The notes beneath the pieces are model-generated. The model worked only from the letters and a program-made list of their open reading frames with translations. It ran no database searches and was not told where the DNA came from. A stretch of DNA of 64,000 nt from Dromiciops gliroides (taxonomy: Eukaryota; Chordata; Mammalia; Microbiotheria; Microbiotheriidae), in the NCBI RefSeq assembly GCF_019393635.1, contig NC_057861.1:54387532-54451531 (forward strand), given 5' to 3'. Position 1 is the stretch's first letter; each line of letters begins with the position of its first letter. This document shows positions 21,918-63,473 of this stretch, one piece after another. Made by a program: the position numbers and the translations under genes.

Positions 21918-22772
21918 TCACAGTAGATCAACACTCAATGTTGATGATACTGTGTACAATGTTCTTCTGGTTCTGCTCATCTCACTCATCATCAGCCCAC
22001 ACAAGACCCTCCAGGTTTCTCTGAACTCCTCCTGCTCATCGTTTCTTACAGCACAATAATATTCCATTGTATTCATATACCACAACTTGTCCAGCCATTC
22101 CCCAATTGATGGGCATCCCCTCATCTTCCAATTCCTTGCCACCACATAAAGAGCAGCTATAAATATTTTTGTACATGTGGGTCCCTTTCCCCCTTCCATG
22201 ATTTATTTGGGGAAAAGACCTAAAAGTGGGATTGCTGGGTCAAAGGGTATGCACAGTTTTATCGCCCTTTGGGCATAATTCCAAATTGCTCTCCAGAATG
22301 GTTGGATCAGCTCACAGCTCCACCAACAATGCATTAGTGTTCCAATTTTCCCACAGCTTCTCCAACATTTATTATTTTCTTTTTTTGTCATTTTAGCCAA
22401 TCTGATAGGTGTCAGGTGGTACATCAGAGTTGTTTTTATTTGCATTTCTCTAATCATTAGAGATTTAGAGCATTTTTTCATATGGGAATAGATAGCTTTG
22501 GTTTCTTCATCAGAAAACTGCCTGTTCATATCCTTTGACCATTTCTCAATTGGGGAATGACTTGGATTCTTATATATTTGATTTAGTTCCCTATAGATTT
22601 TAGAAATGAGGCCTTTATCAGAAGTACTGGGCATAAAAATTGTTTCCCAGCTTTCTGCCTCCCTTCTAATTTTGGATGCATTGCTTCTGTTTGTACAAAA
22701 TTTTTTAAATTTAATGTAATTAAAATCATCCATTTTGCATTTTATAATATACTCTATCTCTTGTTTGGTCAT
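21918..22772 (-). pseudogene. L1 ORF2 C-terminal remnant
   Basis: Two adjoining open stretches (22772-22203 and 22199-21918), separated by one frame break, encode the zinc-knuckle-like CWxxCxxxxxxxHCWWxC region and the C-terminus of the L1 reverse transcriptase protein. The reverse transcriptase and endonuclease domains are absent through 5' truncation. Confidence 0.9.
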
Positions 22773-23332
22773 AAACTGTTTTCCTTTCCAAAAATCTGAT
22801 AGGTATACTATTCCTTTCTCTCCTAATTTACCTATGGTATCACCCTTATGTCTAAATCATGTATCCATTTTGACCTTATTTTAGTATAAGGTGTAAGATG
22901 TTGGTCTATGCCTAACTTCTGCCATACTATCTTCCAGTTTTCCCAGAAGTTTTTGTCAAATACTGAGTTCCTATCCCAGAAGCTTGAGTCTTTGGGTTTA
23001 TCAAACACTACATTACTAGTGGAGGGACAGGTTTTTCACTCACCTGGCCTGTTCTCTGGTCCATAGATAACCCCAGGCCAACTTGCTAATTAACCAGCCA
23101 GCAAAACTTTGTGTGCTGTTGTTGTTAGCTCTAAAGAGCCTGCTCCCTTCCCCCACCTGGGCCACCACCACTCAAGCCTACTTCCTGGTTCCTAGCAGGA
23201 GTGAAACACCCAAATTCTGCCTCAGCGCCAGCAGAGACCCCTGTAATATCCCTCCAACCAACTACTTAGCCCTGTCACCAGACCATGAGCTTAGTTCCAG
23301 ACAACACTGGTGCTGCAGCTGATTCAGAGGCT

Positions 23333-27728: not shown

Positions 27729-28610
27729 TCAGTGCCCACCAACTGGCAATTGGCCCCATAGCAGCTCCAGAGCCCAGCCCACTGTGTGTGGTGAGGCTTC
27801 GGTCAGATATTGGCAACAGAGCCAGTCCTCAAGTCCGGCGGCCTCCCCACCGCCCGCCAGGCGCTCAGCCAACTCTAGGGGCAGCAGGGCCCGGTGGATG
27901 TCCAGCCAGGGTCCCAGGGGGAGGCCTCGGGTCTGGAGTTCAGGCCCAGGCCCCCACAATATGGTCTGCAGGGCCACTCGGATCTGGGCCATAGGGGGAC
28001 GGCTGCCCGGCTCGGCCTGCAGCAAACGCGGGGCCAGGTGAGCCAGAGCCAATGAGTAGGCTGAGCGGATGGGCAGAGGTGGTGGGGATACCCCCCGGGC
28101 TTGGGCCAGTGAAGGGCCTTGGCCCAGCATCTCATAGATAAGGAGGCCCAACTGAAGTTCATCTTCCTGGGCAGGCAGCTGTGGTACCAGTGGCCGGGCC
28201 CTGGCAAAGTTTGTGAGAAGGAGCTGGGGCAGGGCTCCTGTTGGTTGGCCCCGGGGGGAGGCCAAGAGCAGGTTCTCAGGCCTCAGGTCCCCATGGCCCA
28301 GACTGTCCACGTGCAGCTGTTTCAAGGCTCCACACAACTGGAGCAGCAAGAGACACACAAGGCGCTCATACTGTCCCGGACAGACCCGATGCAGCTCCTT
28401 GTTGGCTATAACCCAATCGGCCACAGTCTGAGTGGGCACCTCGGCCACCAGAGCCACTGGCCCTTGCCATGGTGCTCCTAGCAGTGTCCCTGCTGGCAAC
28501 TGGCCACACAGGCTCTGCACATTAAAATGAGGCTGGAGCGTGGCCTGGAGGGCCAGCCCAGGGGGCTCAGCATCCAGGGCCTCAGAGGTCATTGACCAGG
28601 GCTTAGGGAC
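27729..28610 (-). CDS. PEAK3: PEAK3, last coding exon (pseudokinase and SHED region)
   Basis: This exon encodes residues 222-514 of PEAK3 (C19orf35), a cytoplasmic pseudokinase scaffold of the PEAK/NKF3 family. Seen: kinase-fold segments with a degenerate N-lobe (VALVAEVP where an active kinase has VAIK), an HGDLRPENLLL catalytic-loop equivalent at about 327, LLLTNFARA in place of the DFG region at about 355, and a C-terminal helical segment with LEDWLCCQYLTEA at about 481, the split helical dimerisation (SHED) signature of the family. The acceptor CCCCTCAG is at 28618-28611. The upstream exon ends AAG, so the join reads AAK-VPKPW, as in the human protein (recalled). The stop codon lies at 27729-27731. 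Nothing is broken. Known role (family): oligomeric adaptor affecting CRK and GRB2 signalling; catalysis is not expected. Confidence 0.93.
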   Translation of the reverse strand, partial: VPKPWSMTSEALDAEPPGLALQATLQPHFNVQSLCGQLPAGTLLGAPWQGPVALVAEVPTQTVADWVIANKELHRVCPGQYERLVCLLLLQLCGALKQLHVDSLGHGDLRPENLLLASPRGQPTGALPQLLLTNFARARPLVPQLPAQEDELQLGLLIYEMLGQGPSLAQARGVSPPPLPIRSAYSLALAHLAPRLLQAEPGSRPPMAQIRVALQTILWGPGPELQTRGLPLGPWLDIHRALLPLELAERLAGGGEAAGLEDWLCCQYLTEASPHTVGWALELLWGQLPVGGH

Positions 28611-28969
28611 CTGAGGGGAAAGAGCGACATTGGGATCAGAAATTAAAAGTCACATCTTGCCTTTCTCCTAGTGGCTGCTCCAGGTAGAGTATACTGTCCC
28701 AAGCAACAGGCATGCCTTAGCCATTAAGCAGAGGAAATTGGGGAACAGGGAGGATTGGGCAAAAGTTGTCCTCCCTGCTTCCTCTTTTGGGGCCCCCTTT
28801 CCATTTCCTTATCACCAAGACCCTCACCTTGGGTACCTCTTGTGAGCTCCTCTCCTCATGGCTCCTAATTCCCCTTCAAGGACTCTCCCTTATACATCCC
28901 ATGATTCCTTTGCTATGTACTTCCACAAGCCTGCAATTCTTCCCATGATGGCCTAGGATTCTCCTTCTT

Positions 28970-29126
28970 TTTTTCTTTTCTTTTTTTTTTGGTGAGGCAA
29001 TTGGGGTTAAGTGACTTGCCTAGGGTCACACAGCTAGTAAGTGTCAAGTGTCTGAGGTCAGATTTGAACTCAGGTCCTCCTGAATCCAGGGCTGGTGCTC
29101 TATCCACTGCACCACCTAGCTGCCCC
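28970..29126 (-). mobile_element. WSINE1-type SINE in a PEAK3 intron
   Basis: Target duplication GGATTCTCCTTCTT on both sides; sense to PEAK3. Confidence 0.9.
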
Positions 29127-29169
29127 AGGATTCTCCTTCTTAATGGCCTGGCTTTATCCTGCCTTGGAG

Positions 29170-29236
29170 TCCAGGATTCATTCTCTCTCTGTCTCTCTCT
29201 GTCTCTGTCTCTCTTTCTCTCTCTGTCTCTCTTTCC
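29170..29236. repeat. (CTGT/CT)n tract
   Basis: Interrupted CT repeat with regular G, in a PEAK3 intron. Confidence 0.85.
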
Positions 29237-29424
29237 TATTGTTCTCCCCATAAAGAGGCCAACAGCCATGTCCTCACCTTCCTCCACCACTCTGTCTGCC
29301 CTGCAGTCAAACATACTATCCAGGAAGACTCTCCTGCCTAGGCGTGAGGTCTCCACCCTCTTGATTTAGCTTGGGATTTCCAGCTGCACCTCCCACAGAA
29401 GGCCCCGGCCCCCCAGACACTCAC

Positions 29425-30005
29425 CTTGGCGGCCAGCAGGTGCCAGGTATCTCCAGTGATCCGAACCACCCTGTAGTACCAGGCATCCCCGCTCTGGGCA
29501 CAAGGCTTGCTATCCAGCAGGCGGAAGCCCTGACCTGGCCCTCCCCTGCCGGGCCACGGCCCAGCCAGCCGGGTCCCCAGCCGGCTCTCTATGCAGCGCA
29601 GGGAATCCAGCTGGCGGCCTCTGAGAACCTTGTACACCTCCCGGGGGCTCCCCAAATCCTGGAAGAAGTGAGCCAGCTCAGAGTCGGGGGTAGCAAAGGT
29701 GAGCTGCTGAGGGCCTGGCTCGAAGCGGCTCACCCTGCCATATGGGATCTCTTCCAGGCTCCGAGACTCTAGCAAGGGTCTCCTCAGGGTCTCCCAGGGG
29801 GGCTGGCCTGAACTGGGTTGACGCTCCCTCCTGGGAAGGGAGTTGTAGCCGGAGGAGGAGGAGTGGAGAGTTCTGCTGGTAGGAAGAGAGCGGGTCCGGC
29901 TCAGGGTCTTCTGAGGCAAGGGAGGGGGCGACAGGTCGCTGGAGGAAAGTCTGGGCATCCATGGGCGGCAGGGTTTGGAGGGCTGTAAGTGGGCCCGGCC
30001 CTGTC
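29425..30005 (-). CDS. PEAK3: PEAK3, middle coding exon (proline-rich region and start of kinase-like fold)
   Basis: This exon encodes residues 28-221. It begins in phase 2 after a TTCTGCAG acceptor. The first codons (QGRAHLQPSKPC) continue the YSNLG of the upstream exon, as in human YSNLGQIRAHLLPSK (recalled). Motifs seen: PPPLPQK at about 54-60, a CRK-type SH3 ligand; RTRSLP at about 64-69, which fits a 14-3-3 mode I site (Arg at -3, Pro at +2); and FRLLDSKPCAQSGDAWYYRVVR near the end, conserved in PEAK3. The donor AAG|GTGAGT is at 29424. An in-frame ATG at 29958 is internal and is not the start, because the conserved sequence runs upstream across the splice junction. Confidence 0.92.
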
Positions 30006-30410
30006 CTGCAGAACGAGGGAAGGAGGGAGGGAGGCATGTTGGGGAGGGAGAGAAGCCACAGGTGCCTTTCCTGCTAGGATAAGCCCCGGGCTGGGGAGTT
30101 AGGAGAGCTGGGTTCTAGTCTCACCCCCTGCACTCAGTAATCTCGGGGCATGGAAGTCATACAACTTCTCTGGATTTCGGGGGTTCCGTTGATAAGATAA
30201 AGAGGTGGGTTTGGGTGCTGTGGACCTGACTTTGACTCTGAGCTCTACCTGGGTCACCCACCCTTGTCGGGCCTTGGTTTCCTCATCTGAAGGGGGTTAA
30301 ACTAGATAACCTCTAGATTGGGGATCCTATGACTCAAGGGTGTCCAAGGTCACTTGCAGCTCTGATGCTTTGTATTCTGTGACCTGGCGTAAGGCTTCTT
30401 GCATGTAGAG

Positions 30411-31040
30411 TCTTAGAATGTCAGAGCTGGTGAGGTCCTTAGAATGGACAATGTCAGAAGAGTCCTTAGAAGGGAGAATGTCAGAGTTGGGAGGGTCCTT
30501 AGAACACAGTGTCAGAGCTCGGAGGGCCCTTAGAACATAGGATGTCAGAGCTGGGAGGGCCCTTAGAACATAGTGTCAGGACTAGGAGGGCCCTTAGAAC
30601 ACAGGATGTCAGAGCTGGGAGGGCCCTTAGAACATAGTGTCAGGACTAGGAGGGCCCTTAGAACACAGGATGTCAGAGCTGGGAGGGCCCTTAGAACATA
30701 GTGTCAGGACTAGGAGGGCCCTTAGAACACAGGATGTCAGAGCTGGGAGGGCCCTTAGAACACAAGCTATCAGGGCTAGGAGGGTCCTTAGAACACAGGA
30801 TGTCAGAGGTGGGAAGGCCCTTAGAAAACAATGTTAGGGGCAGCTAGATGGCACAGTGGATAGAGCACCGGCCCTGGAGTCAGGAGTACCTGAGTTCAAA
30901 TCCGGCCTCAGACACTTAACACTTACTAGCTGTGTGACCCTGGGCAAGTCACTTAGCCCCAATTGCCTCACTAAAAAAAAAAAAAAAAAAGCCAAAGAAA
31001 ACAATGTTAAAGCTGGGAGGGATCTTAAAATGTGGAATAT
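30411..31040 (+). repeat. Minisatellite, 31-33 bp unit, with dimeric higher-order pattern, in PEAK3 intron 1
   Basis: About 13 units of the form TTAGAACACAGGATGTCAGA + GCTGGGAGGGCCC. In the middle, two unit types alternate as a 64-bp dimer repeated about four times (GGATGTCAGAGCT type and AGTGTCAGGACT type). Edge units are diverged and resemble the 3' tail of a MIR3-like SINE. A SINE interrupts the array at 30837-30995. Confidence 0.9.
30837..30995 (+). mobile_element. WSINE1-type SINE inside the minisatellite
   Basis: Target duplication AGAAAACAATGTTA; antisense to PEAK3. Confidence 0.92.
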
Positions 31041-34468: not shown

Positions 34469-34828
34469 TTACTGTGTACAATGTTCTCCTGGTTCTACTC
34501 CTCTCAGCATCAGTTCGTATAAGTCCTTCCAGGTTTCTCTGAACTCCTCCTGCTCATTGTTTCTTTCAGCACAATAGTATTCCACTATGTTCATATACCA
34601 CAATTTGTTTAGCCATTCCCCTATTGATGGGCATTCCCTTGATTTCCAATTTTTTGCCACCACAAAGAGAGCTGCTATAAATATTTTTGTACGTGTGGAT
34701 CCTTTTCTCTTTTCTATGGTCTCTTTGGGATACAGACCTAGCAGTGGTACCACTGGGTCAAAGGGTATGAACAGTCCCATAGCCTTTTGGGCATAGTTCC
34801 AAATTGCTCTCCAGAATGGTTGGATCAC
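34469..34828 (-). pseudogene. L1 ORF2 C-terminal remnant
   Basis: Open stretch of 119 codons covering the last part of the L1 reverse transcriptase protein; no catalytic domain is present. Confidence 0.88.
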
Positions 34829-34982
34829 TTCACAGCTCCACCAACAATGTATTAACAGTCCAATTTTTCCACGGCTTCTTCAACATTTGTTATTTTCCTT
34901 TTTTGTCATATTAGCCAATCTGATAGGTGTGAGGTGGTACCTCAAAGATGTTTTAATTTGCATTTTTCTGATCAATAGTGAG

Positions 34983-47211: not shown

Positions 47212-47887
47212 CCTTCAACCCATTTTCAAATACCCTGGGTCTCCAGTCTTCTCCCCATCCTGGCTGACCTCCCCAAGAAAATCTCTAGCTTGTCAACATC
47301 CTTCCTAAAATGTGAGCCACACATGGTACTCCATGGGTCTGGGGAGGGGGCACTGTCTAACCAAGGAAGAGGATACCCGGGGTAGCCCCTCACCTTTTGG
47401 GGCTCCACGTTCCACTGCTCCCAGCTGGGAAGTAGGACTGGCCTGGGGCTGGGGCAACCAACCTCAACCTCTCATCCTGATCTGATTATCATGCCATTCA
47501 TTCTTATTCCAAAACATCTGTCACATTTTTCAAAGCCAAGCACCTGCCAGGGCTTTGTTCTGATTTTAGGAAGGGCAGTGGATACGGAGGATTACCCAGG
47601 AACGGGGAGGATTTACCCTCTCCTGACTCTGGTTTCATCTGCAGCTCGTGTCCCCTCCAGGACAGCAACACAGGCAGAAACGGGGCTGCTAGTCTGTGAC
47701 AGAGACAAGATTTAGAATCCCCATTTCAGATAGGAGATGCTGCAGTGCTTTGGAAAAAGCCCAGGACTTGGGAATCAGAATGTCTGGGTTCTAGGCCTAG
47801 ACCAACTATTAATATTGTGTGACCATGAGCAAATCACTTCCCCTTTCTGACCCTCTCTTTTTTCCTCTGTAAAATGAGGGTGTTGGA

Positions 47888-48745
47888 CTGGCCCTCCCAG
47901 CTCTAACATCCTGTGTTCTAAGGGCCCTCCCAGCTCTGACATCCTGTGTTCTAAGGGCCCTCCCAGCTCTGACATCCTGTGTTCTAAGGGCCCTCCCAGC
48001 TCTGACATCCTGTGTTCTAAGGGCTCTCCCAGCTCTGACATCCTGTGTTCTAAGGGCTCTCCCAGCTCTGACATCCTGTTCTAAGGGCCCTCCCAGCTCT
48101 GACATTCTATGTTCTAAGATTACTCCTAGTTCTGACATTTTGTGTTCTAAGTGTCTTTCTCATTACTTTCATTTTTTTGTTCTGAGGTACCTCCCAGCTC
48201 CGACAATCCATGTTCTAAGGTTTCTCCTAGCTCTAATATTTCTTTCATGTTCTAAAGTTCCCTCCTAGCTCTGATATTCCATGTTCTAAGGGCCCTCCCA
48301 GCTCTGACATCCTGTGTTCTAAGGGCTCTCCCAGCTCTGACATCCTGTGTTCTAAGGGCTCTCCCAGCTCTGACATCCTGTTCTAAGGGCCCTCCCAGCT
48401 CTAACATTCTATGTTCTAAGATTACTCCTAGTTCTGACATTTTGTGTTCTAAGTGTCTTTCTCATTACTTTCATTTTTTTGTTCTGGGGTACCTCCCAGA
48501 TCCGACAATCCATGTTCTAAGGTTTCTCCTAGTTTTAATATTTCTTTCATGTTCTAAAGTTCCCTCCTAACTCTGATATTCCATGTTCTAAAGGCCCTCC
48601 CAGCTCTGACATCCTGTGTCCTAAGGGCCCTCCCAGCTCTGACATCCTGGGTTCTATGGACTCTTCCCAGCTCTGACATTCTATGCTCAATGGGCCCTTC
48701 CAGCTCTGACAGTTTACCCTTTAACTCCTTCCCGCTCTGATATCT
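47888..48745 (-). repeat. Minisatellite, ~33 bp unit, inverted relative to the PEAK3 array, with a 302-bp higher-order repeat
   Basis: About 25 units of CCCTCCCAGCTCTGACATCC + TGTGTTCTAAGGG, the reverse complement of the unit in PEAK3 intron 1. A block of about nine distinct units starting at 48021 is repeated from 48323, a 302-base period. The array starts directly from the tail of a MIR3-like SINE (about 47790-47890: GTAAAATGAGGGTGTTGGAC then the first unit). Confidence 0.92.
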
Positions 48746-55807: not shown

Positions 55808-58453
55808 GATAATTTTTTTTAAAAGTGTTTCCTCCCAATAAGCAAACTTCCAGTGATTGCCCAGTAAAGGGAGGGCTCCAACTCTGTGACAGGAAAAGCC
55901 ATGCTGGGGTGGTCAAAACTGAAGAAATGATTCAGGCAATGAAATAAATCAGGGTTGTCTAAATCTTCCGCCCACCTCCAGCTCCACCATGTAGAGGGGG
56001 AAACCGAGGCCACAACCCAGTTCTCTTGAAATAGAGAGCAGCAGGATGAGAAATGGAGTGTGATGAGCAGGCCTTTGAACCACCCCCCATGCCCGACTAT
56101 TGAGGAAGAACAAGGTCATTGGCAAGCATCCCATCCCTCTTCTCCCCCTTCCCTTTCATCACAGCTCACCTAACCTTTCTGAGCCTCAGTTTCCTCTGAA
56201 AAATGAGGGGGCTGAACAGGATGGTTTATAAAGACAAGCCTTCCCCTCCCCTTCTCCCCATGTTGCTGGGACAAACTCTTTGAAAAGAAGCTTCACTGGG
56301 TGGCAAGAGGACCACACTGCCAGCCATCATCCCCTTCAGGGCCCACAATCCCATGAGCATCCCATCCATATCTTCTCTGAAACGAATTGTTTCTTTCCTG
56401 GTTGATTCCCTCCCATCTCCATTTCCAGGCCCCAGGGCCCAAGCTGGTTTCTCTTAAACCAAGGCCACCTTTGCCTGTCCCTGCTTCTTCCTCCTCCCCA
56501 CTGACCCCATCGCTCCCTCTCCTCTAGAGTCCAGTCTATACAGTCTCCAAGACGGAAGTTACGTACCCGACTAGTGGGCAACTTGAGCCAGTGCTGTAGG
56601 ACCCAACTTTCTCCCAAGACAATTCATTCCACTTGACACAAGTGTTAATTGTTGGGAAATTTCTTCCCCCCCCCTACATACAACTAAAACCCATCTCTTT
56701 CCCTAACTTCCACCCATTACTCTTTGTTCTGCCCCCCTAGGGTCAAGCAGAATAAATCTCTGTTCCATAGGCCAGCCCTCAGAATACCTGAAGACAAGGA
56801 TCATCTATATCCTACCCAAGTCTTTTTTTCTCCAGACTAAGCACAGAGTTCCCTTCAACTGGTTCTTACAGGGCGTGGCCTTCAATCAGTGCTCTCCCCA
56901 TGCAGATCACCCTCCTCTGAATGCATCCCTATCACAACCCCCCCACCCCCTTCCCCATTCCTCTCTGATGAATTCCCCATGTATGTAAGACAGCTGAGTG
57001 GGGTTAGGCATCAGTCTAGAGTCCAGACCTCAGCTGGGAGTTGGGTTCAGGCCTCTGGCTGGAGGCACAGAACATAACGTGGCAAAGCCAACTCACCAAC
57101 TTGAAGCAGTGGCTTTGGCCTCACTCACAGAGGAGCTCTAACCACTAGGGCAACAGACCACTTACCTGGTCATAAACACCAAGCATTTTGGTGGTGTGGC
57201 AGCTGAGCCCATGTTCCTTCTGGTCAATCCCCTCCTCCCTCCCTCATCCCCCTTATGTGGCTGTATGAGAGAATATGAGCCATGAAAATGGAGTGGGAGA
57301 TGCTGGGGGCAAAGGTCACTCCAATCCCTATTGATGACCATAGGCAGTAGTGAGGGCACCTAGAGCTGCCCCCTAGGTGGAGGCTCTGGGTGGCAGCTCT
57401 GTGGTCACCGGGGCTCCGAGTTTGAGCTGCTCATATGAACTGGGTGGAAATTGCATGATTCCCCCCCACACACACACCATGGGCTATGGTGCTGTTTCAG
57501 GCGGGAGCCCCCAGTGTTGGGGGGGGGGGATGTTATTGATTTCTCACCTGTGTGCCTCACAAGCAGCTGAGAGCTGGCACAGGATGTCTCAGCCCCCTCC
57601 ATTCCCTTCTCTGGGGGAACCTAAGTTCTGCATAGGGCAGGAGGGGGTTAGGGAGGGAGAACATCTCCTGTTTACCCCAGAGTTGCAGCCCCATCAAGGC
57701 TTTGGAGACCTTGGCTGAAAACCCTTTAGAAATGCATCCTGGGAAAAAAGCATCTCTGCCAGAAGGCATTTTTCTATTATTGAAAAGGAAATTAATCCTC
57801 CTCCACCAGCCCTGGCTGTGTCTCCCCTTTCCTTCCCCACCCCTTGAGAAATGCATAGTTGATTATTGTTTTTAAAACCAGGTTAAGGTAGGGTGGGAGA
57901 CACTCACCCAGGGCCTGCAGGAGGTGGATAGATGGGAGATTAAGTTCTGAGGTCAGGTTTTCCTCACTGGATGCCAGGGCCTTGCGTTTCCTAGGCATGG
58001 AAATCTCTTCCATGTTCCCTCCCCCTCTAGACACTGGGGTGACTACACGCCCCTTCCCCACATCACATCACCCCAGCTGAGGTGCCTCTGGATAGACACC
58101 TTCCCCTTCCCCCTGGGCGGGGTCTACTCCCCAGTAGAGAGAAGGATCATAGGACCACTGCATTTAGTCAGAAGGGAAGGGACCTTTGGAATCATTTGCT
58201 TGATCTCCCCTCCCACCCTCCCCATTTTACAGATAAGCAAACAGAGGCCCCAGAGAGGGGAAGGGACTTCCCCTAAGTCATACAGCTAGTAAATGGTAGG
58301 GCTGGGATTGGATCCCAGGTCGTCTCCTCCCCAACTCCAAACCCAGGGCTAACCGTCCCTCTTCACACCATGGGGCAGGTGAAAGGAGGGGACACCTGAG
58401 GGAGGTAGGAAGGAGGCAGACGGGGAGAGGTCATCCCAGGTGGCCGGGGGGAG
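55808..58453 (-). other. Probable LINGO3 3' UTR and flank
   Basis: About 2.6 kb with few clear SINEs, in contrast to the dense repeats on both sides, which fits an exonic 3' UTR under insertion constraint. It contains C-rich and G-rich tracts and MIR-like scraps (about 56170-56230 and 58160-58340). No second gene is convincing. An open stretch near 57910-58020 ends at a GTGAGT donor but lacks other support. Confidence 0.35.
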
Positions 58454-59533
58454 TCAGATCATCTTCATGTTGAATTTGCGGGCACCCCCTTGGCCCGCAG
58501 CAGCAGCTGGCCCGTCCACCTTGCGGAAGGAGTACTCCACGGAGAAATTGCTCTTGTGCTGCCCTCGTCCCCTGCTCCAGACAAAGAGCAGGAGGAAACA
58601 GAAGAGGACGACGCCCAGAAAGGTGATGCACCCCATGGCTGTGGACACCAAGATGGTGGTGAGGTCCAGGGGGAAGCGCGGCAGCTGCGTGTCGTTGCGA
58701 GCGGCCAGGTCCCCCGGCTCCCCGGGCCCCAGGGTCCGGTTGGCCCCGGGGCGCACCATCAGCGTGGCAAAGTACGTGTCGTTGCCGCCTGCATTGCTGG
58801 CGACGCAGACGTAGGTCCCGCTGTCCTGGGCCTGGGCCTCCCGGATCTCCAGCGTGCCGCCCACCAGCACCCGGGTCCTGTCGCCACCGGCGCCTGCCAC
58901 CACTCGGTGCTGGGGCGTCACCCAGGTGATGCTGGGCTCCGGCTCGCCTTCGGCCCGGCAGAAGAAGCTGACCGCCTGGCCCTCGGTGGCCGTGACGTGC
59001 TGGAGCCTCCGCTCACGGATCTTGGGCTTGCGGCACACGAAGTACTCGAAGAGGGCCGAGTCGGGCAGGGCGCGCAGCGCATCGCCCCGCACCTCAGCCG
59101 GGCTGGCGCACGACGGCAGGCGCCCGTCGAAGTTGAGCGTCTTTCTCCGCTGCACGATCCACAGCAGGCGGCAGTCGCAGGCCAGGGGGTTGCCGTCCAC
59201 GCGCAGCGTCTCCAGGGTGTTGACCGAGTGAAAGGTGCTCTCCTCCAGCGTGGCAAGCAGGTTGTTGGAGAGGTTGAGCAGGCGGATCTGCCGCAGGCCC
59301 AGGAAGGCCTGGGGCTCCACCACAGCCAGCAGGGCCCCGGCCAGGTGAAGCTCCCGCAGCCGCACCAGGTCACGGAAGGAGCCCCGCGGCACCGTGCTGA
59401 TGGGGTTGTAGGAGAGGTTGAGGGACGTGAGGTAGGCCAGGTGCCGCAGGGCCGCGGCGGGCACCGCGCTGATGTTGGTGTAGGTGACCGACAGGGAGCT
59501 GAGGTTGAGGCCTTGAAGACTGCTGGCTGTGAC
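58454..59533 (-). CDS. LINGO3: LINGO3, 3' coding exon (codons 240-598)
   Basis: This exon encodes the rest of LINGO3, numbered for the 598-residue form. It holds the last LRRs, the LRR C-cap (NPLACDCRLLW at about 353, with further cysteines to about 406), an I-set Ig domain with its cysteine pair at about 431 and 482 (FFCRAEGEPEP and YVCVASNAGGND), N-glycosylation sequons (NDT, NRT), one membrane span at about 531-558, and a short basic tail ending ARKFNMKMI, the LINGO-type C-terminus. The acceptor is TTCCAG, with a CTGAC branch-like sequence about 20 bases upstream and a T-rich tract between. The first codons read VTASSLQGLNLSSL and join in phase 0 to the EE that ends the upstream exon, matching the continuous human sequence EEVAAGSLRGLNLTSL (recalled). 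The exon is very GC-rich and CpG-rich. I see no frameshift or stop, so the gene looks intact. Confidence 0.96.
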   Translation of the reverse strand, partial: VTASSLQGLNLSSLSVTYTNISAVPAAALRHLAYLTSLNLSYNPISTVPRGSFRDLVRLRELHLAGALLAVVEPQAFLGLRQIRLLNLSNNLLATLEESTFHSVNTLETLRVDGNPLACDCRLLWIVQRRKTLNFDGRLPSCASPAEVRGDALRALPDSALFEYFVCRKPKIRERRLQHVTATEGQAVSFFCRAEGEPEPSITWVTPQHRVVAGAGGDRTRVLVGGTLEIREAQAQDSGTYVCVASNAGGNDTYFATLMVRPGANRTLGPGEPGDLAARNDTQLPRFPLDLTTILVSTAMGCITFLGVVLFCFLLLFVWSRGRGQHKSNFSVEYSFRKVDGPAAAAGQGGARKFNMKMI

Positions 59534-59712
59534 CTGGAACAGATCGAAAAACGTCAGAGCCAGGGAGGGGGCAAGCTGAGAATACAGATCTACACCTGGA
59601 AAGGGCTGCAGACCTAGGTCAACTCCCTCATTTTACAGGAAAGGAAAACTGAGGCATGGGGGAGCACCAAAATGACTTTGCCAACTTTATTGAATGTTAA
59701 AATGAGAGCCAG

Positions 59713-59850
59713 GGGGCAGCTAGGTGGCACAGTGGATATAGCACCAGCCCTGGATTCAGGAGTACCCAAGTTCAAATCTGGCCTCAGACACTTGACACTT
59801 ACTAGCTGTGTGACCCTGGGCAAGTCATTTAACCCTCATTGCTCCCACTT
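59713..59850 (+). mobile_element. WSINE1-type SINE in the LINGO3 intron
   Basis: Flanks AAAATGAGAGCC and AAAATGAGAGTC; antisense to LINGO3. Confidence 0.88.
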
Positions 59851-60828
59851 AAAATAAAAAATGAGAGTCATTCCCCAATTGATAGATGATCAAAAGACAT
59901 GAAGTTTTCAGATGAAATCTGAAACCTATAGCCATATAAAAAAATGCTCTAACTCACTATTGATTGGAAAGATTCAGGTCAAAACAATTCTGGGTACTAC
60001 CCCAACTTTAGTGGAAAAGAAACCCCTGAAGTGCTCTTTACATATATTTTCTTCTGCCATGGAAGAGCGATCACCCTTCAAGTCTCCTCATCTGGGAGCA
60101 CAGAATGTCAAGGGCTGGAAGGGCCCTTATAAATGATCTGTTCCCCAGATATCCAATCTGCAGCCGGCCTACCACATGTGGCCCTCCTGAGATTTTTAGC
60201 AAAAAATCCTTTCCCTAATTAGCTAGCACACAGGAATCAGTAGGGTCTAAACATCTGCCTGCCACAACCAGATGTCATGCTAGCAGCCTTGGCTTAATTA
60301 GGAATTTAAATGAAGCTGAAAATAATTAAAAAGATAACAAAAATCCCACATATGGATTTCTAATAATAATGTTGGAGCTGGATGGGACCTTAGGGGAAAA
60401 AAAACACCATTATCCAATCTCCTCCTTTGACACTGTTTACAGAGAAGGAAACTGAGGCATAAAGCAGTGAATGGACTTGACTGTTGCTGGAGACACAGAT
60501 GTAGGTCCTGGGTTTGTCCAGGGTTACACAGGAAATTAATTAAGAAAAGAGAATCTGTACTTGAACCCTGCACTCCTTGACTCCCAGTGAAGTGGTTTTT
60601 CCAATATATCACGTTTCCTCCTTGGGTGCTCCTAATCCAGTCCAACCCCCTTATTTTATAGATAGGGGAAATGAGACTGTGCATTTTCACAGGCCTTCCC
60701 TCCTCTCTGGCCCCAATCTTCCTTCAGATCCCAGCTAAGATTTCTCCTTCCCCAGGAAGCCTTTCCCAATTAGACTGTGAGCTACTTGAGGGCAGAGACA
60801 GTTTTTTGCCTTTATTTAGGTACATATT

Positions 60829-61050
60829 GTCCTTCAGTCTTGTACTACTTCTTCATGACCCCCTATGGGGTTTTCTTGACAAAGGTACTGAAGAAATTTG
60901 CCATTTCCTTCCCCAATGGATTTAAGCAAATAGAGGTTAAGTGATTTGCCCAGCATCACACAGCTGATGAATGTCTGAGGCCAGATGTGAAGTCAGGTCT
61001 TCCTGACTCTAGGCCCAGCATTCTATCCACTGAGCCACCTAGCTGCCTCC
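60829..61050 (-). mobile_element. MAR1-type SINE in the LINGO3 intron
   Basis: Near-complete, diverged, sense to LINGO3. Confidence 0.8.
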
Positions 61051-61084
61051 TTAAGTACACAGTAAGTACTTAATAAATGCTTGT

Positions 61085-61220
61085 TGGGGGTGGCTAGGTG
61101 GCGTAGTGGATAAAGCACCAGCCTTGGATTCAGGAGTACCTGAGTTCAAATCCGGCCTCAGACACTTACTAGCTGCGTGACCCTGGGCAAGTCACTTAAC
61201 CCCCATTGCCCGCAAAAAAA
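61085..61220 (+). mobile_element. WSINE1-type SINE in the LINGO3 intron
   Basis: Target duplication AAATGCTTGTTG; antisense to LINGO3. Confidence 0.88.
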
Positions 61221-61417
61221 AAAAATGCTTGTTGACTTGACTTGCCTAAGATCCCACAGCTAGTAAATGACAGTGTCAGGACTTGACCCAACACCCTCAT
61301 TAGACCAATGAGGAATTCCTCATTAGACCAATGCAGAAAAATGAGGCAGAGGAGGTGATGTCACTTGTACCAAGTCGCACAGGTTTTGAACCCAGGGTCT
61401 CGGGGCTGCAAACCCAA

Positions 61418-61576
61418 AGTTTTTTGTTTTTGTTTTTTTTTTGCGGGGCAATGAGGGTTAAGTGACTTGCCCAGGGTCACACAGCTAGTAAGTGTCAAGT
61501 GTCTGAGGCCAGATTTTAACTAAGGTACTTCTGAATCCAGGGCCGGTGCTTAATCCACTGCACCACCTAGCTGCCC
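61418..61576 (-). mobile_element. WSINE1-type SINE, cluster member 1
   Basis: Follows AACCCAAAGTT; the AAACCCAAGTTC text recurs between cluster members. Confidence 0.87.
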
Positions 61577-61587
61577 CAAACCCAAGT

Positions 61588-61746
61588 TCTTTTTTTTTTT
61601 TTTTTTTTTTGGCAGAGCAATGGGGGTTAAGTGACTTGCTCAGGGTCACACAGCTAGTAAGTGTCAAGTGTCTGAGGCCAGATTTGAACTCAGGTACTCC
61701 TGAATCCAGGGCTGGTGCTTTATCCAGTGCACCACCTAGCTGCCCC
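61588..61746 (-). mobile_element. WSINE1-type SINE, cluster member 2
   Basis: Long T-run at its tail side; same orientation as its neighbours. Confidence 0.87.
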
Positions 61747-61756
61747 AAATGTTTTT

Positions 61757-61904
61757 GTTTTTGTTTTTAGTGAGGCAATTGGGGTTAAGTGACTTGCCCA
61801 GGGTCACACACCTAGTAAGTGTTAAGTGTCTGAGGCCGGATTTGAACTCAGGTACTCCTTATTACAGGGCCGGTGCTCTATCCACTGCGCCACCTAGCTG
61901 CCCC
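61757..61904 (-). mobile_element. WSINE1-type SINE, cluster member 3
   Basis: Belongs to the CAATTGGGGTTAAG subtype, unlike its three neighbours with CAATGGGGGTTAAG or CAATGAGGGTTAAG. Confidence 0.87.
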
Positions 61905-61910
61905 TGCAGA

Positions 61911-62093
61911 GGTTTTTTTTTTGTTTTGGGGGGGGGTTTGTGTTGTTGTGTTTTTTTGCGGGGCAATGGGGGTTAAGTGACTTGCCCAGGGTCACACAGC
62001 TAGTAAGTGTCAAGTGTCTGAGGCCAAATTTGAACTCAGGTACTCCTGAATCCAGGGCTGGTGCTTTATCCACTGCACCACCTAGCTGCCCCA
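61911..62093 (-). mobile_element. WSINE1-type SINE, cluster member 4
   Basis: T/G-rich tail of about 45 bases; followed by AAACCCAAGTTCTTTATG. Confidence 0.87.
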
Positions 62094-62284
62094 TCAAACC
62101 CAAGTTCTTTATGCAGCACCACACTGGTCCTACCTCAGAGTTTACCTGAAAATCACCTGAGTTACTTCTCCAAAAAGATTAAAGATTCCAACCCCCCCAA
62201 AATCTGGGAAGTTCTTTTACCCCTCCCCCTCCCATGCTTTGACTTCAGCCGCCGCCGCCCAGCCCCCTCTGAAGCCAAACCCAC

Positions 62285-63001
62285 CTCCTCCAGCAGCGGC
62301 CAGTTGTCGATCTCCAAATGGAGCAGACCCGGCAGGCGGCGGAAGTTGTGCTCCTCCAGGGCGGGGATGCCCAGGTATCGCAGCCGCAAAGCTCCGAGGT
62401 TCTGGAGGTGCGCCAGTGACTCTCCAGAGAGCGTGGTGAGGTTGCAGCGCTCCAGTGTGAGCTCCTCCAGGGCCAGCAGCCCTGAGAAGGCCCGCTGGGA
62501 GATGAAGACCAGGTCGTTGTCCCCCACCTCCAGCCGCTTCAGGTTCCTGAGATCCTGGAACATGTGGTCCAGTAGGATAACCAGCTTGTTCTCGCTCAAG
62601 TCCAGCAAGGTGAGGTTGCTCAGCTTGGTGAAGACCCCCGGGGGGATGAGCTTCAGCTGGTTGCCCCGCAGGCGCAGGGTCTGCAGGTGCAGCAGGTTCC
62701 CGAAGGCACCGGGCTCCACGTGGGCAATGATGTTCTCACTCAGGTCCAGCTCCTCCAGGAGGGGGTAGGGCGCTAGGTCACCGGGGTTGAGGCAGCGGAT
62801 GCGGTTGCGGCTCAGCTCCAAAATTCGGGTCTCTGTAGGGATGCCCTCTGGGATGGCCGTGAGGCGTCTGCGGTGGCACACCACGGACCGCAGCTGCGGA
62901 GCACACTCGCATCGGGCTGGACAGCCAGCCCCCGGAGCCCCGTTCAGGAGCACCAGATGAAGGCTTAGGAGCTGAAGCCAACATGTCATGGTGTGGGACA
63001 T
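62285..63001 (-). CDS. LINGO3: LINGO3, 5' coding exon (codons 1-239)
   Basis: This exon encodes the N-terminal half of LINGO3, a type I plasma-membrane protein of the LINGO family (leucine-rich repeats plus Ig domain, mainly neural). Seen: a hydrophobic signal peptide after MTCWL, a cysteine-rich LRR N-cap (CPARCECAP) and then tandem LRRs with LxxLxLxxN spacing (for example LELSRNRIRCLNPGDL, LLDLSENKLVILLDHMF, LEELTLERCNLTTLSGESL). From memory the sequence follows human LINGO3 almost codon for codon. Two in-frame ATGs, at 63001 and 62989, both have A at -3. The second matches the human start (MTCWL), giving 594 instead of 598 residues. A polypyrimidine tract and AG at 63037-63036 mark an acceptor, so 63035-63002 is 5' UTR and a non-coding first exon lies upstream outside the window. 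The exon ends GAG, followed by the donor GTGGGT at 62284-62279. Confidence 0.95.
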
Positions 63002-63035
63002 GGTCTTAGGGCCTTGCTATCATTCTCACGGGCAC
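63002..63035 (-). other. LINGO3: LINGO3 5' UTR part of the coding exon
   Basis: A TTTTTTCTCCCCCAG acceptor at about 63050-63036 precedes 34 untranslated bases and the first ATG. A spliced non-coding leader is the usual arrangement in the LINGO family; the leader exon is not visible before the window end. Confidence 0.6.
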
Positions 63036-63089
63036 CTGGGGGAGAAAAAACAGAATGTCTGAGGAACCTGACACTATGGAATGTGGGGA

Positions 63090-63362
63090 GCTTGTTGTGG
63101 TAGAGTCATATCTGATTCTCTATGACCCCATTTGGGGTTTTCTTGGCAAAGATACTGGAGCGGTTTGCCATTTCCTTCTTCAGCTCATCTGTAAACTGAG
63201 GCAAACAGGGTTAAGGGACTTATACAGAGTCATACAGCTAGTAAGTATCTGAGGCCAGGTGCTCTATCCACTACGCCACCCGTGTGACTTGCCCAGGGTC
63301 ACACAGCTAGTAAGTGTCAAGTGTCTGAGGCCAAATTTGAACTCAGGTACTCCTGAATCCCC
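63090..63362 (-). mobile_element. MAR1-type SINE followed by a WSINE1-type fragment
   Basis: MAR1 covers about 63090-63282. The second piece (63283-63362) holds only the CORE and B-box part. Confidence 0.78.
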
Positions 63363-63473
63363 TTAGAAAAGAGACTATCGGTGCTGGCAGGAGACAGAAT
63401 ATAGAGAATGGCTGAGACCGGAGGAATGCTAGAATGGCAGAAATGTCAGGAAGGCCTTTAGAATATTGAGAGC

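Follow-up and report, generated by a model that had tools for sequence, protein, structure and literature searches.

Older work, as recounted in PMC12124190, held intron gain in mammals to be extremely rare, and the same paper counts 342 gains, spread over 293 human genes, on the human lineage (Hoh and Salzberg 2025, PMC12124190). With these numbers, the phrase 'extremely rare', which the initial annotation of the locus described here had applied to new mammalian introns, turns out to be overstated. There is no settled account of how mammals acquire new introns, and apart from retrogenes and genes of transposon origin, few cases appear to be described. The LINGO3 intron presented here resembles the human-line gains in being a candidate for a coding intron newly acquired by a vertebrate orthologue, recognized from presence and absence across relatives, and in its ordinary length and splice-site strength (PMC12124190). 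It also has something in common with three other described systems: with fish melanocortin receptors, the insertion of an intron into an otherwise intronless coding gene (PMC3151243); with notothenioid slc26a2, the gain of an intron by an intron-poor vertebrate gene (PMC12357937); and with domesticated genes, mammalian intron gain from an intronless ancestral state (PMC3257199).

The analysed window is a 64,000-nucleotide stretch of DNA, at positions 54387532-54451531 of its contig, from Dromiciops gliroides, the monito del monte, which is a small marsupial of South America. Translation placed LINGO3 on its minus strand, in two pieces between 63001 and 58454. Coding exon 1 (62285..63001, minus strand; 239 codons by translation) encodes the protein start and the first LRRs and ends with ...CTG GAG GAG, and coding exon 2 (58454..59533, minus strand; 359 codons and the stop) encodes the last LRRs, the Ig domain, a predicted membrane segment and the C-terminus RKFNMKMI. 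Pfam models detected LRR_8 in exon 1 (167 bits) together with LRRNT at 22.6 bits, under its cut-off of 25.8 bits, and LRR_8 and I-set in exon 2; the putative signal peptide of exon 1 and the membrane segment of exon 2 were both recognized by eye. Joining of the exons gave an intact 598-aa frame, split at codon 239/240, with 100% identity over 100% of the length to database protein P0001 (ncbi, uniref, nr), an entry which may itself be a gene prediction. The closest solved structures to the joined protein, among the matches listed, were chains 4oqt_A and 2id5_A, which we take to be LINGO1. The same window holds PEAK3 on the minus strand (27729-30114), where positions 27732-28649 showed 99% identity over 97% of the query to a Dromiciops gliroides PEAK3 record; PEAK3 adjoining LINGO3 is presumably the same arrangement as in human 19p13.3. 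The locus therefore carries the features of a LINGO3 orthologue, namely LRRs, an I-set Ig domain, the C-terminal RKFNMKMI and PEAK3 as neighbour, with LRRNT seen only below its cut-off.

A genome search with exon 2, in which 113 of 430 candidates were scored, found neither a second LINGO3 nor a retrocopy, and the nearest same-genome relatives were LINGO1 and what we take to be LINGO2, with next-best identities of 55% and 51%. LINGO4 was not seen among the candidates scored; it may be absent, diverged or among those left unscored. If the split copy were a retrocopy or pseudogene, the true LINGO3 would lie elsewhere. We found no point in favour of this explanation; it is opposed by the single LINGO3 locus recovered in the search, by the adjoining PEAK3, by the intact frame and by the identity to P0001. 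Among the 113 of 430 candidates scored, there was no parent gene elsewhere, nor did the locus show decay, and the chance that this explanation is correct appears negligible. A processed copy or broken pseudogene had already been called unlikely in the initial annotation, and one LINGO3 locus with both exons intact agrees with that judgement.

Between the exons lies a GT-AG intron of 2,751 bp in phase 0 (59534..62284, minus strand), which starts with GTGGGT, ends with TTCCAG and has a GC content of 0.46 vs. 0.63 and 0.68 in the exons. Its 5′ splice site GAG/GTGGGT (62279..62287, minus strand) scored 8.91 bits and ranked 1 of 267 GT sites, and the polypyrimidine tract with the 3′ splice site, TTTCGATCTGTTCCAG/G (59533..59549, minus strand), scored 9.93 bits and ranked 4 of 370 AG sites; the ranks were obtained with a general-knowledge splice matrix for all GT and AG sites in 63400..58000. 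A CTGAC at 59553..59557 (minus strand), with its A at 59554 being the 21st base from the intron 3′ end, is branch-like. GT..AG ends, donor, polypyrimidine and branch-like signals and the restoration of an intact, conserved frame upon intron removal are all indicative of a U2-type intron. The intron coordinates, the donor, the acceptor TTCCAG/GTC and phase 0, as first annotated, were all reproduced from the sequence, as was the claim that the pieces rejoin to an intact LRR-Ig protein with a canonical C-terminus. With the same ranking, a strong acceptor immediately upstream of the ATG (63035..63051, minus strand) came 1 of 370 AG sites and probably marks the end of a presumed 5′-UTR intron.

The position of the splice sites was compared with relatives of the protein. 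Out of at least 1,334 relatives found, 120 were listed, P0001 being counted among them, and 118 of these cross the junction in an ungapped alignment, the other two, P0050 and P0096, lacking residues at that point. Per base, counting both strands of the window, sites as strong as those of the LINGO3 intron occur at 3.8e-4 for donors and 8.7e-4 for acceptors, and with such low frequencies a donor and an acceptor falling exactly on the homology break are not to be put down to chance. The intron is predicted, from its sequence, to be spliced in vivo. We considered that the 2.75 kb might instead be an insertion that is not spliced out or an artefact of assembly, with the gene broken or only seemingly split. 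Strong splice signals at both ends exactly at the homology break, the exact rejoining of the frame and the intact state of both exons speak against this explanation, which we regard as highly improbable.

In the intron, the frame of exon 1 continues as a 40-codon read-through (62165..62284, minus strand) up to a stop, and an intron-retaining mRNA would encode a truncated LRR protein without Ig domain or membrane segment. A search with exon 1 plus the read-through revealed no truncated marsupial frame among the best 120 of 148 matches. Exon 1 makes up 86% of this query, and among the same best 120 of 148, no match with over 50% identity extended across more than 87% of it.

Taken with the structure of its relatives, the LINGO3 split is very probably a functional intron of the U2 spliceosomal type, acquired in the marsupial lineage by a coding sequence that was ancestrally single-exon. 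In the same genome, LINGO1 (L003, 613 aa, named for its similarity to the structures 4oqt_A and 2id5_A) and the presumed LINGO2 (L002, 606 aa) have uninterrupted frames across the site matching the LINGO3 junction. Dog LINGO3 is described with an 'only exon' (PMC9602046), and the coding regions of LINGO genes are said to be confined almost entirely to one exon (PMC2225406). Since LINGO1, LINGO2 and dog LINGO3 are uninterrupted, we read the intron as a gain. An ancestral intron would have been lost separately in eutherians, LINGO1, LINGO2 and other vertebrates. This would require several independent exact losses, and its absence in LINGO1 and LINGO2 of this genome and in dog LINGO3, along with the almost exclusively single-exon coding part of the family, makes an ancestral origin very unlikely. 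The polarity, gain rather than loss, appears strong but unproved, and draws on two papers and two same-genome relatives. In the initial annotation, the uninterrupted coding sequence of the LINGO family had been assumed, and these four sources agree with it. The mammalian gain that it proposed is likewise supported, in a marsupial, by single-exon LINGO1, LINGO2 and dog LINGO3; what did not stand is the degree of rarity that it stated and the sign of duplication that it saw at the intron ends.

That sign was AGGT at both intron ends. The match between the ends stops after those four bases, and any GT-AG intron in an AG/GT site would give the repeat anyway, so it is no evidence of duplication. 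The site itself was approached through the residues flanking the junction in the 120 listed relatives, where the pair is E-V in 49, D-V in 31, D-I in 27, Y-I in 5, E-I in 4, A-L in 1 (P0029), S-I in 1 and absent in 2. E-V permits the codons GAG GTN, containing AG/GT. This pair is present in LINGO3 of the bilby Macrotis lagotis (P0002, 90% identical) and, among the matches listed, in four of the five placentals named (P0013, P0033, P0045 and P0065; not P0034) and in many birds. Its presence in bilby, placentals and birds suggests that the AG/GT site probably predates the insert, as judged from residues and not codons. In platypus (P0029), with A-L at the junction pair, the AG/GT site may be absent.

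Inside the intron, 1,478 of 2,751 bases, SINEs included, match other places in the window. Three clustered young CORE-SINEs (61617..62092, minus strand; K 0.041, 0.066 and 0.049) form a 518-bp insert flanked by the repeat AAGAACTTGGGTTTG at 62109 and 61591. The young CORE-SINE at 61447..61577 (minus strand; K 0.075; 168-bp insert) has the same target as the three-SINE block, with an inexact second copy, AACTTTGGGTTTG, at 61421. Two more young CORE-SINEs lie on the plus strand, at 61087..61210 (K 0.071; 148-bp insert; target repeat AACAAGCATTT) and at 59713..59842 (K 0.049; 159-bp insert; target repeat CTCTCATTTT). An older SINE with a longer tail (60840..61060, minus strand; 235-bp insert) was aligned with three window copies; it gave a K of 0.191 over 60929-61047 against the CORE-SINE consensus and has a possible decayed target repeat, TGTACTTAA/TGTACCTAA. 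All K values were measured from the consensus of 53 window CORE-SINE copies, the intron's seven included, with a median of 0.066 for the 53. Five insertions, the three-SINE block taken as one, appear to lie between like target sequences, one of these repeats being inexact and that of the older SINE short. Multiple SINEs bounded by target repeats are what long-resident DNA would show, which argues further against an unspliced or mis-assembled insert. An old fragment at 59857..60004, with 72-78% identity to three further copies in the window, is L1-like. The length of the intron is 1,758 bp without the six young SINEs and 1,523 bp without the older SINE too. Elsewhere in the window, two minus-strand frames (22203-22856 and 34469-34879) look like C-terminal pieces of a LINE reverse transcriptase.

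For the age of these insertions, we used the figure of 0.0045 per site per Myr given for WSINE1 in dasyurid work (PMC3403934). At this dasyurid rate, and thus roughly, the young SINEs (K 0.041-0.075) date to about 9-17 Myr and the older SINE (K 0.191), which may belong to another subfamily, to about 42 Myr, or more with slower clocks. With its content of six young SINEs, an older one and an L1-like fragment that is itself old, the intron probably goes back tens of millions of years. If the older SINE landed in place, the intron is at least as old as this SINE and may be shared with Australian orders, a view that we lean towards. If instead the block was copied from elsewhere, its older repeats could predate the intron and the age bound fails.

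The proposed course of events for the gained intron is as follows. DNA not visibly derived from exons would have come into the AG/GT site at codons 239/240 (GAG/GTC). The AG and GT on the exon side, together with a good donor at the left end of the insert and a right end bearing pyrimidines and a branch, would have formed splice sites. These would remove the insert exactly and so leave the protein unchanged, and the insert would later have accumulated SINEs. SINEs were also considered as the cause of the intron and rejected, as they lie within it, flanked by target repeats of their own. The full intron showed no overall similarity to the exons. Within the window, its donor end (62093-62284) has no copy elsewhere and its acceptor end (59534-59712) has one 29-base match. 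An Rfam scan of the window gave 0 matches.

A different form of gain, in which the intron started as a tandem duplication of an AGGT-bearing exon segment, deserves separate mention, as the AGGT found at either end accords with the model of PMC3443670 and one piece of the intron resembles an exon. This 25-base piece (60508..60484) shares 88% identity with Ig-coding sequence of exon 2 (58818..58794) in gene orientation, with E 0.001, and its score was equalled by 1 of 200 shuffles and by 0 of 40 window stretches, the 40 being the same stretches in two orientations. A gapped-alignment control was uninformative, with 175 of 200 shuffles reaching the score, and tblastn of LINGO3 against the intron widened the match to 19 residues at 37% identity, with a best E of 0.19. 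Yet there is no other likeness between intron and exons (next matches at E 0.61 or worse), the piece is short, sits in the middle of the intron and has its exon counterpart a long way from the junction, and the AGGT match extends no further than four bases. We consider a tandem duplication quite improbable, and the 25-base piece, too short to decide, is kept as a lead and not as an explanation. Read as protein, 60484-60508 gives TYICVSSN vs. TYVCVASN at 58794-58818, a likeness that may be coincidental or left over from exon-like DNA.

A more specific version of the entry of outside DNA is that a repeat-laden genomic block was captured in break repair, in the Dromiciops line alone, entered the AG/GT site of the single-exon gene and was immediately usable as an intron. 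We offer it tentatively and think it rather unlikely; if true, it would be a datable birth of a mammalian intron, and every relative would still have the empty site. Intron origin by double-strand-break repair would leave short direct repeats at the two ends, where AGGT is indeed present, although an AG/GT site with a GT-AG intron yields this in any case. Two tandem arrays in the window, at 47873-48319 and 30597-30760, have units of about 33 and 64 bases as estimated from match spacing, and both share a 37-base piece, about 84% identical, with intron bases 60096-60132; the first of them yields a repetitive frame, ALPALTSCVLR.

Judged by titles and the openings of abstracts among the papers listed, we found no description of an intron gain in LINGO3, and 'lingo' is absent from the main text of PMC3257199. 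LINGO3 is a neuronal receptor gene with one locus found in the genome, and its sister genes and dog orthologue are without the intron; comparison of a handful of marsupial genomes would date the intron and could reveal what was inserted. The survey of human-line gains started from human introns, so that a marsupial-only gain lies outside its reach, and the LINGO3 host gene differs from that setting in being, by our reading, single-exon in its coding part (PMC12124190). The melanocortin receptors are fish genes of the GPCR family, likened to LINGO3 by gene structure and not by mechanism (PMC3151243). For slc26a2, a transposon insertion was proposed from the intron sequence (PMC12357937), whereas the SINEs of LINGO3 are read as later insertions. 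The domesticated genes are transposon-derived (PMC3257199), whereas LINGO3 is an old vertebrate receptor gene. Set against these systems, the LINGO3 intron is a new case of an already known phenomenon, lineage-specific intron gain.
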